Of a stretch of DNA of 64,000 nucleotides, positions 9,756-25,866 are shown one piece after another. This stretch comes from Pseudomonadales bacterium (GTDB taxonomy: Bacteria; Pseudomonadota; Gammaproteobacteria; Pseudomonadales; DC-out160): positions 1 through 64,000 of the forward strand of contig JAHRWA010000032.1 of NCBI GenBank assembly GCA_019090455.1, read 5' to 3'. The number at the start of each line of letters is the position of its first letter. Positions within the stretch are counted from its first letter, which is position 1. A program made the position numbers and the translations under genes. The notes below the pieces were generated by a model. The model worked only from the letters and a program-made list of their open reading frames with translations. It was not told the origin of the DNA and did not search any database.

Positions 9756-11756
9756 GTGAATAATCGAATCAATCACGCTAACTTTCCCAGTAGAAAGATG
9801 AAAACAATCTCTCCTAAATTAAGCGATAGGCTCACAGTCCTCGCAATTGGCTTTTTAAGCCTGCTATTTACCTCCAGTTGTAGCACCTTTACAGAACGCG
9901 ATCACGATCAAAGTAGTGCCAGCAAATTGCGTCCCAGTAAGACAAGCCCTCAAAATACGAATTCTACTAATACTGACTCCATCACACATAATCCGAGTAA
10001 CAGTGACGGTGGCAATGGCCGCACTGTAGACAGCTCTAACAGGGCAACAATCAACCGACCCGACAACACTAAACACAAATCTCTAACACCGATTCGGCCA
10101 AACAATGTCTCTGACAGCCTGGCAGCCGCAGCGGAAAACAAGACCTCCAAACAAGATCCGTTGCCCCCCGCCTCAACTATGGAAGCTGAAACACTTTACG
10201 ATCTCATCGTTGCGGAAATGGCCGGGAAAGCAAACCGTTTAAATGTCACTTTGGGTAATTACCTCAAACAGGCGAACTACACAAAAAACCCAAAAATAAT
10301 TGCGAGGGCAACGCGAATCGCCAAATACATGGGTGCCCATCAAGCAACGTTCAATGCAGCAAACCTATGGCTAGAAGTCGATCCCAATAATATCGAAGCC
10401 CATCAGGCCGTCACCGTACAGCTAATTCGCAACAATAAATACGATGCGGCACTCCAACATATGAGTAGCCTCCTACGACTATCCAGCGAACCTAATTTTG
10501 ATTTCCTGATTCATCACACTCGTAAGATCGACAAGGAAGCAAGACAGAACATCATCGCAGGGCTAAAAAAACTAACACAAAATCACCCTGAAAATTCTCG
10601 TTTATGGTTTACCAAGGCTATTTTAGAGGACTTCCAAGGTTCCAAAGAAGCCGCAATATTGTCAGTAGAACGCTCACTTGAAATAGAACCGAACTATGTT
10701 ACCGCTGTTATTTTTAAAGCGAAAACACTGCGTAACCTTCACCGAGAAGAGGACGCCTTCAAAACATTAAAACAGGCTGTTAAAAAGCACCCCGACCACA
10801 AAAGACTACGCATAGTCTATGCTCGACTACTCATCAGTCTCAACAAACTAAGCAAAGCCCAGGCACAATTTGAATACCTGATAAAAAGAAATCCGGACGA
10901 TAGTGATCTTTTACTTTCTCTCGCTTTACTCTCTTGGGAAAACGAACTTGAAAAACAAGCGATAGAATATCTCCATCAGCTGTTAGAAACAGGAAAGAAA
11001 ACCGGTGATGCACACACTTACCTAGGTCAAATTTACGCCTCTGAGAAAAAACATAAGAATGCCATTAAGCACTTTAATCAAGTTCAAAATGGGCCCAATT
11101 ACACCACAGCACAAATTCAATTAGCCCTGGTTTACAGTGAAATAAACCAAGTAGAAAATGGCATCGATACACTGCACCAAGCCATTAAAAAACATGTAAG
11201 CAGTAAAACCCAGTTCCTCATAGCCGAAAGCGAAATATTAATAAATGCTGAGCGCCTTGATGAAGCTTACATCGTATTAAACAGAGCATTACAAGAAGAA
11301 CCCAGTGACTCCGACTTACTCTACAGCCGGGCAATGCTGGCAGAAAAGCTCAACAATCTTGATCAACTCGAATCTGATCTGCGACTAATCATTAAGGAAA
11401 ACCCCTCTAGCGCACTGGCACTCAACGCTCTGGGTTACACACTAGCTGACCGGTCAGATCGTCTCGAAGAAGCACTAGAGCTCATTACACAGGCCGCCAA
11501 AATTGAACCCAATGATCCAGCGATTATCGATAGCCTAGGCTGGGTTCATTATAAACTCGGCAATAATGCCGCTGCGCTGCAGCATCTACGCAATGCTTAC
11601 AAGCTTTATAAAGACCATGAAATTGCCGCTCACCTGGGTGAAGTACTATGGAATGAAGGACTAAAAGAAGAAGCCACTGCCCTTTGGAAATCTTCCAAAA
11701 AAGAGTTCCCAGATAGCGCTATCTTGAAGAAGGTGATGGACCGATTTCTGAAATGA
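9756..11756 (+). CDS. Tetratricopeptide-repeat protein, probably envelope-associated
   Basis: A 666-residue protein with a hydrophobic N-terminal segment ending in FTSSCS (possible lipoprotein signal with a poor lipobox), a Ser/Thr/Asn-rich linker to about residue 130, and a long TPR solenoid. TPR-like units include NSRLWFTKAILEDF, DAHTYLGQIYASEKKHKNA and AIIDSLGWVHYKLGNNAAAL. The GTG at 9756 has AGGG upstream. An ATG at 9798 (MKTISPK) would put the hydrophobic stretch nearer the terminus and is a real alternative. It overlaps lolB by 4 bp (ATGA), so the two are translationally coupled. The neighbour of hemA/lolB in Pseudomonas is the same kind of protein. Exact role unknown; a link to outer-membrane lipoprotein handling is an inference from position. 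Confidence 0.8.
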   Translation: MNNRINHANFPSRKMKTISPKLSDRLTVLAIGFLSLLFTSSCSTFTERDHDQSSASKLRPSKTSPQNTNSTNTDSITHNPSNSDGGNGRTVDSSNRATINRPDNTKHKSLTPIRPNNVSDSLAAAAENKTSKQDPLPPASTMEAETLYDLIVAEMAGKANRLNVTLGNYLKQANYTKNPKIIARATRIAKYMGAHQATFNAANLWLEVDPNNIEAHQAVTVQLIRNNKYDAALQHMSSLLRLSSEPNFDFLIHHTRKIDKEARQNIIAGLKKLTQNHPENSRLWFTKAILEDFQGSKEAAILSVERSLEIEPNYVTAVIFKAKTLRNLHREEDAFKTLKQAVKKHPDHKRLRIVYARLLISLNKLSKAQAQFEYLIKRNPDDSDLLLSLALLSWENELEKQAIEYLHQLLETGKKTGDAHTYLGQIYASEKKHKNAIKHFNQVQNGPNYTTAQIQLALVYSEINQVENGIDTLHQAIKKHVSSKTQFLIAESEILINAERLDEAYIVLNRALQEEPSDSDLLYSRAMLAEKLNNLDQLESDLRLIIKENPSSALALNALGYTLADRSDRLEEALELITQAAKIEPNDPAIIDSLGWVHYKLGNNAAALQHLRNAYKLYKDHEIAAHLGEVLWNEGLKEEATALWKSSKKEFPDSAILKKVMDRFLK

Positions 11757-12388
11757 ACTTGGAATCACCCTCGAATCTGAGCTTGCGCCACTCAATATTG
11801 AAATTTGCCGGGATGATTATTTTACTGTTACTCCCCGGCTGTACTCTGCTGCATCCCGCATTCGATAAATCACTTGAACCCACTTCTGCTGACACAATGA
11901 GTCACTGGAAGTTAAAAGGAAAAATCGGTATTCGCACCAAAGAGGATGGCGGCAGTGCACATTTACGCTGGATACAACAAGGCAGTCGATATGAATTATC
12001 CCTATCAGGCCCGCTAGGACAGGGAGCGGCATCCATTCATGGAAATCAAAGTGGAGTCACCTTAAAAAGTCGACGAACGGGTACTCTCTACGCTGACACG
12101 CCAGAACAGCTGATCTCCGAGGCTTTCGGATGGCATGTACCGATTTCTAACTTACTTTACTGGATCAAAGGGTCACCGACACCGGATCACAAACTGACTC
12201 AAACTCACTCCCGGTATGATGAAGAAGGCCGTCTCGAATCTTTCTCACAACATGGCTGGACGATTCAGTACAGCCGATTCCGTCAGGTCAATGGACTCTT
12301 CCTTCCCCACAAAACGGTAATAAAACAAGATGACATCAAAGTCACACTCATCGTTTCTAAATGGGAATTAGGTCGACAATCTTTATGA
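11753..12388 (+). CDS. lolB: Outer-membrane lipoprotein LolB
   Basis: LolB accepts lipoproteins from periplasmic LolA and inserts them in the outer membrane. The 211-residue product has a type II signal with lipobox LLPGC (Cys30), then the LolB fold beginning WKLKGKIGIRTKEDGGSAHL and the family-typical GWHVPISNLLYWIKG. Its start overlaps the upstream TPR gene by ATGA, and its stop region begins the repeat array that leads into ispE. Confidence 0.93.
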   Translation: MNLESPSNLSLRHSILKFAGMIILLLLPGCTLLHPAFDKSLEPTSADTMSHWKLKGKIGIRTKEDGGSAHLRWIQQGSRYELSLSGPLGQGAASIHGNQSGVTLKSRRTGTLYADTPEQLISEAFGWHVPISNLLYWIKGSPTPDHKLTQTHSRYDEEGRLESFSQHGWTIQYSRFRQVNGLFLPHKTVIKQDDIKVTLIVSKWELGRQSL

Positions 12389-12470
12389 CGACAGACACAC
12401 TCCAATTATAAAATGCACACCTCAACTATGACATTCACACCCCAAATATGACAATCACACCTCAATCACT
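12385..12470. repeat. 20-bp tandem repeat array spanning lolB stop and ispE start
   Basis: Four imperfect units begin at 12385, 12408, 12428 and 12448, with periods of 23, 20 and 20. Each resembles ATGACAATCACACCTCAATC. The first ATG (12385) overlaps the lolB TGA as ATGA and opens an 8-codon frame (MTTDTLQL). The third opens a 7-codon frame (MTFTPQI) whose TGA overlaps the ispE ATG. The fourth is the ispE start itself (MTITPQSL). The ispE initiation region thus appears to have been duplicated in tandem. Confidence 0.8.
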
Positions 12471-13344
12471 AACCCTGCCCTCACCCGCAAAAATTAATTT
12501 ATTCCTTCATATTCTCGGTCGCCGTGATGATGGCTATCACAAACTACAAACGGTTTTTCAACTATTGGAATACAGCGATGAACTTCAATTCACCCCCAAT
12601 GATACTGGCAACATTAGTCTGACCCCAGAAACAGCTGACCTGCCGACGAAACAGAACTTAATCTGGAAAGCCGCCCAGCAATTACAAAATTACCATGCCT
12701 TACAACCTGGAAATGACAAAGTCGAAAAAAGCACAAAAAACCTCGGAGTGCACATTCACGTACAAAAGCGAATTCCAATGGGTGGCGGATTAGGGGGCGG
12801 CTCGTCAAATGCAGCGACAACACTAATCGGCTTAAATAGACTTTGGGATCTTGGCTTATCCAAAACGACATTGGCCGAGATTGGCGTAAAACTGGGTGCT
12901 GACGTTCCTATTTTCATCAATGGACACAGTGCCTGGGCAGAGGGAATAGGAGAGGAACTAACAAAGATAGAACTGCCAAGTCGCTGGTATTTAATCATCA
13001 CTCCAAACTGCCATGTATCAACAGAAAAAATATTTCAAAATAAGGAATTGACAAGAAACACAACTGCCATCAGAATGGCGGCCTTTCTTGAGGGGGGTGG
13101 TCAAAATGACTGCGAACCTTTAGTGAGAAAACTCTACCCTGAAGTGAACAACGCACTGATTTGGTTAGATCAGTATGGCAAAGCCAGGCTAACTGGCACA
13201 GGCGCTAGCGTATTCACTCACTTTGAAGATAAAGAGAGTGCCTTACAAGCATTAAAGGCTTTACCTAAAACACTTAATGGTTTTGTTACTAAGGGTATTA
13301 ACCAATCCCCTCTGCAATTAAACCTACGGGATCAGTTAGCCTAA
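12448..13344 (+). CDS. ispE: 4-diphosphocytidyl-2-C-methyl-D-erythritol kinase
   Basis: IspE phosphorylates CDP-ME in the non-mevalonate (MEP) isoprenoid pathway. It is a GHMP kinase: substrate motif PSPAKINLFLHILGRRDDGYH at the N terminus, ATP-binding PMGGGLGGGSSNAATTL in the middle, and a C-terminal motif TGTGASVFTHF. 298 residues is slightly longer than usual (about 285). The start ATG lies inside a 20-bp tandem repeat, which may affect initiation or coupling with lolB. tRNA-Gln and prs follow, as in Pseudomonas. Confidence 0.95.
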   Translation: MTITPQSLTLPSPAKINLFLHILGRRDDGYHKLQTVFQLLEYSDELQFTPNDTGNISLTPETADLPTKQNLIWKAAQQLQNYHALQPGNDKVEKSTKNLGVHIHVQKRIPMGGGLGGGSSNAATTLIGLNRLWDLGLSKTTLAEIGVKLGADVPIFINGHSAWAEGIGEELTKIELPSRWYLIITPNCHVSTEKIFQNKELTRNTTAIRMAAFLEGGGQNDCEPLVRKLYPEVNNALIWLDQYGKARLTGTGASVFTHFEDKESALQALKALPKTLNGFVTKGINQSPLQLNLRDQLA

Positions 13345-24478: not shown

Positions 24479-25174
24479 ATGCAATCCACCTCCTTACTTC
24501 GACTACTTCATTTAGTCAGCCCAGCACTCCCAATCGGCGCATTCGCCTACTCTAAGGGTCTAGAATCCGCCGTTGAATTAGAGTGGATCACTGATGTATC
24601 CAGTTGCGAAGATTGGCTTGTCACCCAAATGGAAGAAGGCATGGGCCGACTCGACCTTCCTATTTTTATTCGTTTATACAATTTATGGCAACAACGAAAA
24701 GAACAGGAAACCGATGATCTCGATAATCAGCTCCTCAGCAAAACACACTACTGGGCACAATATCTATTAGCCTGCCGTGAAAGCCGAGAGTTGCATTTAG
24801 AAGAACAACAACTGGGAAAGACCATGGTGCGCCTACTCGAGTCCCTAGACTTCAAGGGCGACTTTGCCCAGTTCCACTATTCCTACACCTGTCAGTTTAG
24901 TTTCGCCTGTGTGCAATGGGGCATCCCCTTAGAAGATGCAGTCAATGGTTTTATCTGGAGTTGGCTAGAAAACCAAGTCACGGCTGCCAGCAAAATCATT
25001 CCATTGGGACAAACTGACGCACAAAAAATGTTAGTTAAAATAGTCGACCTCATTCCTGCAGCCACTGAAACTGCTTTTGGCATCGAGGATATTGATATCG
25101 GTTCGAATCTAGCGGCATTGGCTATCGCAAGCCAAATACATGAAGATCAGTACTCCAGACTTTTTCGATCATAG
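24479..25174 (+). CDS. ureF: Urease accessory protein UreF
   Basis: A helical 231-residue protein of the UreDFG activation complex. It starts MQSTSLLRLLHLVSPALPIG, followed by FAYSKGLESAVE, a hallmark of the family. Later helices include YSYTCQFSFACVQWGIPLED and the C-terminal DIDIGSNLAALAIASQIHE. It is located between ureE and ureG as usual. Confidence 0.94.
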   Translation: MQSTSLLRLLHLVSPALPIGAFAYSKGLESAVELEWITDVSSCEDWLVTQMEEGMGRLDLPIFIRLYNLWQQRKEQETDDLDNQLLSKTHYWAQYLLACRESRELHLEEQQLGKTMVRLLESLDFKGDFAQFHYSYTCQFSFACVQWGIPLEDAVNGFIWSWLENQVTAASKIIPLGQTDAQKMLVKIVDLIPAATETAFGIEDIDIGSNLAALAIASQIHEDQYSRLFRS

Positions 25175-25178
25175 TCCA

Positions 25179-25242
25179 TAACCAAAATTGACCTTAACCA
25201 TCAAAGTCTTTAACCAGAATTGTCCTTCACCATCGAAAATTG
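25179..25242. repeat. 32-bp tandem duplication between ureF and ureG
   Basis: Two 32-base units, 25179-25210 and 25211-25242, share TAACCA, AATTG, CCTT and ACCATC in the same spacing (roughly three quarters identical). They fill most of the ureF-ureG gap. Confidence 0.75.
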
Positions 25243-25257
25243 GGAAATCAGAACATT

Positions 25258-25866
25258 ATGAATGAAAAACATGTGCTACGAGTCGGCGTCGGTGGTCCCG
25301 TGGGTTCCGGTAAAACCGCCTTATTAAAATCGCTTTGCATTGCCATGAGAAACGATTTTGAAATCGCGGTCGTCACCAATGATATATACACAAGAGAAGA
25401 TGCCGAATTCTTGATTCATCACCAAGCACTCGAACCGGACCGAATTATTGGCGTAGAAACCGGTGGCTGTCCTCACACTGCCATCCGTGAAGATGCCTCA
25501 ATGAATCTGAATGCAGTGAGTGAACTCACCACCAAATTCCCTCAACTCGATTTAGTATTAGTAGAAAGTGGAGGCGATAATTTAAGTGCCACTTTTAGCC
25601 CAGAACTTTCTGACCTAACACTCTATGTCATTGATGTTGCCGCAGGAGATAAAATTCCACGTAAGGGAGGCCCAGGAATCACAAAATCAGATTTACTGAT
25701 TATAAACAAGACGGATCTCGCCCCACATGTGGGCGCATCACTGGACATTATGGCGAGAGATGCAAAAAAAATGCGCAAAGATAGACCATTTATATTTACG
25801 AATTTAAAGAAAAATGAAGGCGTCAGCGACATTATTGAATTCATAGTGGATCACGGCATGCTTTAA
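25258..25866 (+). CDS. ureG: Urease accessory GTPase UreG
   Basis: A SIMIBI-class GTPase that couples GTP hydrolysis to nickel insertion into urease. The P-loop [15 protein letters not shown], the nickel-binding region [17 protein letters not shown] (Cys and His of the CPH motif), [17 protein letters not shown] and the guanine motif NKTD are all present. The start at 25258 (MNEKHVL) gives 202 residues. It is the last gene of the urease operon. Confidence 0.97.

Follow-up and report, generated by a model that had tools for sequence, protein, structure and literature searches.

Tandem copies between lolB and ispE and a candidate mini-ORF relay in a Pseudomonadales genome with many short arrays

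How did two neighbouring genes come to be separated by tandem copies that include the start of the second, and could ribosomes still pass from one gene to the other? This question is raised by the lolB-ispE junction of the window, by which we mean the whole analysed stretch of 64,000 nucleotides, a part of contig C28 of a genome of 5.55 Mb (G000). The gene order is TPR gene, lolB, ispE, tRNA-Gln, prs and the gene of ribosomal protein L25, and the lolB start itself overlaps the upstream TPR gene by 4 nt (-4). As read from the sequence, 59 nt separate the lolB stop from the ispE start, and they are filled by imperfect tandem copies of a short unit. The features of the junction are the following:

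11753-12388, plus strand, lolB (TIGR00548, 118.7 bits against a cut-off of 59.6)
12385-12407, plus strand, repeat copy 1 (23 bp, apparently a 20-bp unit plus 3 nt)
12408-12427, plus strand, repeat copy 2 (20 bp, ATAAAATG..., with ATAA in place of ATGA)
12428-12447, plus strand, repeat copy 3 (20 bp, ATGA present)
12448-12467, plus strand, repeat copy 4 (20 bp, with the ispE start ATGA inside)
12385-12411, plus strand, mini-ORF 1 (MTTDTLQL, opened by the ATGA around the lolB stop, stop codon TAA)
12413-12451, plus strand, mini-ORF 2 (MHTSTMTFTPQI, 12 codons, stop in the ispE ATGA at 12448-12451)
12448-13344, plus strand, ispE (TIGR00154, 286.8 bits against a cut-off of 138.7)

The array and its mini-ORFs

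A four-copy array of 20-23 bp, with the lolB stop in its first and the ispE start in its last copy, had been proposed by a sequence-only reading of this DNA, and the array stood up well against shuffled sequence: its lag-20 self-similarity was reached by none of 20,000 dinucleotide shuffles, and its self-similarity over lags 12-30 by none of 3,000. Once a 3-nt deletion is made in copy 1, the four copies agree pairwise at 13-16 of 20 positions, and TRF reports a period of 20 over 12416-12465 with a score of 79, the second highest of the 25 TRF rows in the window. Copy 1 holds the lolB stop TGA (12386-12388) within its ATGA, and copy 4 opens with the ispE ATG (12448). ATGA is present in copies 1, 3 and 4, but it is lost from copy 2, and the best-conserved stretch in copies 2-4 is CACACC(T/C)CAA, not ATGA.

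Such a conserved stretch would also fit direct repeats that serve as DNA sites, be it as operators of a regulator or as an internal promoter of ispE-prs. Promoter-like matches are found within the array on both strands (the best with 10/12, on the minus strand), seven of them occur in 2 kb against 2.6 expected, and an 18-base pattern of the unit matches 24 places outside the array in the own genome if up to three mismatches are allowed, against 10 for a reversed control pattern. However, the same pattern has no match outside the array at zero or one mismatch in the own genome and three at two mismatches, BLAST finds the unit at a single place there, and other arrays of G000 are built from unrelated units. 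Consensus promoter matches, moreover, are no evidence of function. We regard DNA sites as the least likely reading of the repeats, and a very improbable one.

Two short frames, MTTDTLQL and MTFTPQI, had been predicted in the spacer. Both exist as described, the stop of MTFTPQI overlapping the ispE ATG. However, MTFTPQI starts at an internal ATG (12428) of mini-ORF 2, and the ATG at 12413, which had been missed, extends this second frame and closes the chain, as it opens 1 nt past the stop of mini-ORF 1. The stops and starts of lolB, mini-ORF 1, mini-ORF 2 and ispE are thereby linked without a break, at spacings of -4, +1 and -4. Since both periods, 20 and 23, leave a remainder of 2 on division by three, a frame that opens in the ATGA of one unit stops in the ATGA of the next copy unless an earlier stop intervenes, and the relay comes free with the period. 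Among the 37 junctions with gaps of 12-150 nt, a strict chain built from ATG starts only was found in the window alone, the other 36 being distant relatives.

Each link of the chain falls within about -4 to +3 nt, the spacing of a chain coupled by termination-reinitiation. Coupling is reported to be best at -4 to +3 nt and 3- to 10-fold lower near +40 nt, with little or no coupling beyond 30 nt in a recent study, though some exceptions at larger distances are described (PMC12548453), and three gene pairs of E. coli are reported to lose 80-100% of coupling at 38 nt (PMC10666635). By these limits a bare gap of 59 nt should reduce coupling or abolish it, but spacings of -4, +1 and -4 lie in the working range. 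The junction therefore resembles ATGA termination-reinitiation coupling, as far as it is described in these two sources (PMC10666635, PMC12548453), in that its links are of the efficient kind, and it differs in that two mini-ORFs stand between the real genes and in being known from sequence alone.

The lolB-ispE junction in relatives

We collected 216 loci and scored 199 ispE junctions, 196 of them with a long ORF upstream; 163 junctions, window included, came from the order of the window. One scan of genome contigs gave 36 loci with 39-59% identity to the query. Copies of the window (L001, L068 and L070), a locus that was too short (L045), sequence duplicates such as L099 and four loci without the IspE motif were left out. 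Within the order, with the end of lolB taken from the longest upstream ORF and some gaps being approximate, lolB and ispE overlap in 96 of 163 junctions, 50 of these at -4 and 14 at -1, while gaps of 0-10 nt were found in 34, of 11-30 nt in 20 and of more than 30 nt in 13. The 59-nt gap of the window is unusual, because only these 13 of 163 exceed 30 nt. The two genes overlap or lie at most 10 nt apart in 130/163 junctions (window included), which suggests that coupling is normally used between them.

The sequence-only reading had assumed an ancestor coupled by ATGA and later split by duplication. While the 130 overlapping or nearly touching junctions speak for this idea, the nearest family does not show the -4 arrangement. 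In our IspE tree the nearest neighbour of the window is family f14 together with the BD1-7 clade (L035, Spongiibacteraceae), with a support of 99/87 in a tree whose bootstrap is not settled, and the gaps in f14 are -23 (G055), -17 (G014 and G115) and +18 (G141). No array was seen at the lolB-ispE junctions of f14. In a congener of the window's genome (G001), ispE was not matched, and the contig that carries lolB ends within this gene. The ancestral state is judged from families whose IspE is about 60% identical or less, as these are the closest relatives with a junction in the data. At this distance the comparison supports an ancestor in which lolB and ispE would have overlapped or nearly touched, and in which duplication would later have spread them apart.

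The window gave the strongest tandem signal of all 199 junctions (score 30), and the next (score 25) came from G106 (L095). In this genome of another family, a 7-bp (CAACCCG) tandem array lies right before the ispE start. Among the other 198 scored junctions, arrays that reach the ispE start were found only there and, with a unit of 20 bp, in G118.

The array of G118 (L096), 58 nt before ispE, is weaker than that of the window, and a 7-codon frame ends in its ispE ATGA. Its lag-20 score was reached by 0 of 20,000 shuffles, yet its score over lags 12-30 by 10 of 3,000, and 199 junctions were examined. The IspE tree places G118 with family f46 (91/80, which is below the star level of the tree, its bootstrap not being settled) and away from the window. 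Homology of the two arrays was rejected on this grouping, and the data suggest that the 20-bp array of G118 would be of independent origin or partly due to chance. The gaps in family f17, to which G118 is assigned, are -4 in two genomes, 35 nt in one and 58 nt in one. The 35-nt gap belongs to G058, a congener of G118, and holds no array; the two gaps of -4 are those of the two genomes examined from the other f17 genus. Of further candidates, L135 (p 0.001 at lag 20) was set aside, as its repeat lies within the upstream ORF, and the junctions L153 and L184 gave p <=0.01 at other lags.

Short tandem arrays across the genome

Of the 5.55 Mb of G000 we read 864 kb, the window and L229-L268 included. 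For each ORF of 90 codons or more, the first possible start in its frame was taken as the gene start, and a start array was counted where tandem self-similarity reached at least 14 in the 91 nt around a start. On these uncurated starts, with some top scores at TTG or GTG, 34/662 starts of G000 carry an array, against 2/611 in the stretches of three comparison genomes (Fisher p 4.6e-8): 1/323 in G055, 0/169 in G064, which is matched in G+C, and 1/119 in G077. One shuffle per start yielded 0 start arrays in every set. The lolB-ispE array is the fourth strongest among the 662 starts of G000. With arrays at so many gene starts, it need not be about ispE.

Similar results were obtained for intergenic DNA, where TRF found 63 arrays (period 10-40) in 137.1 kb of G000 (4.6 per 10 kb); the comparison genomes have 0.77, 0.44 and 2.66 arrays per 10 kb, G077 having the intermediate rate. 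The congener G001 has 8 intergenic arrays in 5.0 kb, from 34 kb of contigs which are not a random draw. Arrays of G000 have a median copy number of 2.6 and a median match of 86%. Their intergenic periods are mostly 12-20 with a peak at 16 and leave residues 0, 1 and 2 on division by three in 21, 25 and 17 cases; of the arrays in coding sequence, 38/42 have a period divisible by 3. The units are mutually unrelated (of 1,953 pairs, one reaches 80%, as many as among shuffled units). Unrelated units and frame-divisible coding periods together point to a mutational process that copies short pieces of DNA wherever they lie and that is filtered in genes by the reading frame. The lolB-ispE array is a member of this genome-wide excess, with head-to-tail copies beyond chance and a unit unique to its place, and thus has the marks of a slippage-type array. 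A second spacer in the window has a like appearance: the 65 nt between the ORFs 24479-25174 and 25240-25866 are almost all 32-bp tandem repeat (25168-25234), which TRF reads as 16-bp units as well.

These arrays recall short tandem repeats described in other prokaryotes. A survey of repeats with units of 10-30 nt (PMC6749651) deals with short head-to-tail units too, and the genic class that it reports likewise has lengths in multiples of three. In comparison with the repeats reported there, those of G000 are short, diverged, of unrelated units and intergenic-dense in one genus. Repeats of Borg elements (PMC9879509) are said to arise independently from local sequence, as seems to be the case here, and to have unit lengths divisible by three within ORFs, while in intergenic DNA only 14-38% of the unit lengths are so divisible. 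However, they are described as perfect and recent and belong to archaeal extrachromosomal elements, whereas the arrays of G000 are diverged and sit in a bacterial genome. An intergenic array density about 2 to 10 times that of the three comparison genomes, together with frame filtering in genes, makes the genus a natural test case for the limits on short duplications in bacteria.

What drives these duplications might be sought in exonuclease I, since a stabilising effect on tandem repeats is reported for ExoI, ExoX and RecJ (PMC3942315, citing Feschenko 2003). A whole-genome family search found exonuclease I (PF08411) in 79/95 order-level genomes, including G055, G064 and G077, and gave no PF08411 match in G000, in G001 or in 14 other sampled genomes; recJ and mutS are present in both G000 and G001. 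In nine other genomes without PF08411, 15 loci with 3.5 kb of intergenic DNA contain no array, where about 1.6 would be expected at the rate of G000. Genomes with PF08411 have 2 arrays in 23.4 kb of intergenic DNA (76 loci), and G077 possesses exonuclease I yet shows an intermediate array rate. One might speculate that a high rate of tandem duplication in the genus lengthens operon spacers, that only periods of 2 mod 3 would last at ATGA junctions, as mini-ORF chains which ribosomes can pass, with lolB-ispE as the strongest such array seen, and that the lack of exonuclease I may drive the duplications. We consider this broad scenario unlikely. In G012, a genome with exonuclease I, an intergenic 17-bp array of 5.6 copies (CTATGTTAAAAACAGTA) was observed (L019).

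Is the relay used?

The explanation that we prefer, and hold to be probable, is a local one: slippage-like short tandem duplication acted on a lolB-ispE pair that formerly overlapped or nearly touched, and made of it a mini-ORF chain that would let ribosomes pass. Duplication of this type would have marked the read parts of G000, lolB-ispE included, and would have hit this junction at a time when the two genes still overlapped or almost touched. Given a unit with ATGA and a period of 2 mod 3, it would have made a series of linked mini-ORFs out of the former overlap of stop and start. Along this chain ribosomes could pass by termination-reinitiation, and with such passage the insertion would be tolerated without full loss of coupling. 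The array, though real, may then be an ordinary product of the duplication habit of G000, and the relay an interesting consequence. If the relay works, the junction shows a coupled pair that was pushed 59 nt apart without loss of coupling, since every added ATGA unit, if of suitable length, restores the overlap, and it provides a natural insertion series for measuring reinitiation. Should the relay not be in use, the array is no more than a common spacer repeat.

A rival reading is that ispE is translated independently, from an A/C-rich, G-poor and open leader to which ribosomes would bind without the aid of a Shine-Dalgarno sequence, the spacer being neutral and the mini-ORFs role-less by-products. 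The ispE start, ATG 12448, is the earliest ATG, GTG or TTG in the open frame of the gene, and its context agrees with independent translation in several respects. Upstream of it no Shine-Dalgarno match of more than 3 bases was found. The 70 nt around it fold at 0.0 kcal/mol (sampled 70-nt windows have a median of -10.5, and 0.6% are as open), the 59-nt spacer contains only 4 G (1.6% of plus-strand stretches are equally poor), and the start is the least structured among the 163 order-level ispE starts compared. However, dinucleotide shuffles of the same bases are near-unstructured as well (mean -1.3, sd 1.2), so the openness follows from composition, and the close spacing in most relatives of the order argues for coupling as the normal state. 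The persistence of the chain is no proof of its use either: if the observed number of random substitutions is placed on a perfect array, 22.6% of simulations keep the strict chain, and 28.2% and 33.7% keep it under looser limits; a shuffled spacer holds it in 2.3%. Taking both sides together, independent initiation is a serious possibility, although we find it rather doubtful.

Returning to the relay of the preferred explanation, we counted similar chains at 156 same-strand gene pairs with gaps of 12-100 nt within the 864 kb read of G000. Strict relays were observed at 6 pairs against 2.5-2.8 expected, a weak excess, and looser ones at 8 against 4.5-4.7, which is weak as well; in the comparison genomes 1/149 pairs has a strict relay, against 1.45 expected. 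Thus the relay is plausible and locally complete, and selection on the chain is no more than a possibility. In line with the earlier suggestion, the mini-frames may preserve coupling or adjust the expression of ispE.

A stronger claim would be that the mini-ORFs are selected regulators of isoprenoid precursor supply, either as leader peptides or through tuned coupling. A precedent for regulation by a mini-ORF is mg2 of the axe-txe operon, a two-codon minigene reported to raise the expression of the downstream gene txe, with the distance to the next start as the crucial parameter (PMC8708949). In both systems a mini-ORF stop lies close to the next start. However, mg2 has only two codons and txe its own Shine-Dalgarno sequence, and the mini-ORFs at lolB-ispE are, unlike mg2 as described there (PMC8708949), copies of the start of ispE itself. 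In the open-licence library that was searched, we found no published description of tandemly copied, ATGA-linked starts. Support might also come from G000, where five genes with an ATGA start in the 864 kb are preceded by a copy of this start whose lag is 2 mod 3:

12448, plus strand, ispE (lag 20)
L245:2632 (start, with the spacer to 2682), minus strand, response regulator gene after a PilS-like kinase (lag 8, also 16)
L258:18944, minus strand, amino acid kinase family gene (PF00696; lag 14, a five-codon frame ends in its own ATGA)
Short-chain dehydrogenase gene with an ATGA start copy (lag 17, score 10)
RsmB/F-family gene after a formyltransferase gene, read as fmt-rsmB (lag 17, score 9)

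The count is weakened on several grounds, though. The dehydrogenase gene and rsmB score no more than 10 and 9, values within reach of shuffling, as 2 of 661 shuffles score at least 9. The fmt-rsmB junction of the congener G001, by reading of the sequence, has no duplication. A period of 0 mod 3 is invisible to this count, because a gene is called from the earliest start codon in its frame, and two such cases in G000 show up as copies downstream of the start. In addition, no conservation is seen at ispE, where the arrays of G118 and G106 are the only others to reach the start. Hence we think selected regulators highly unlikely, if slightly less so than DNA sites.

A rule by which ATGA starts would retain duplications of period 2 mod 3 alone was kept as no more than a lead, as the L245 gene also fits a lag of 16 (1 mod 3) and the scores of two genes are within reach of shuffling. 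At this L245 start, two 8-bp copies (ATGACAAT and ATGAAAAT) precede ATGACC, and they yield three-codon frames, each of which stops in the next ATGA.
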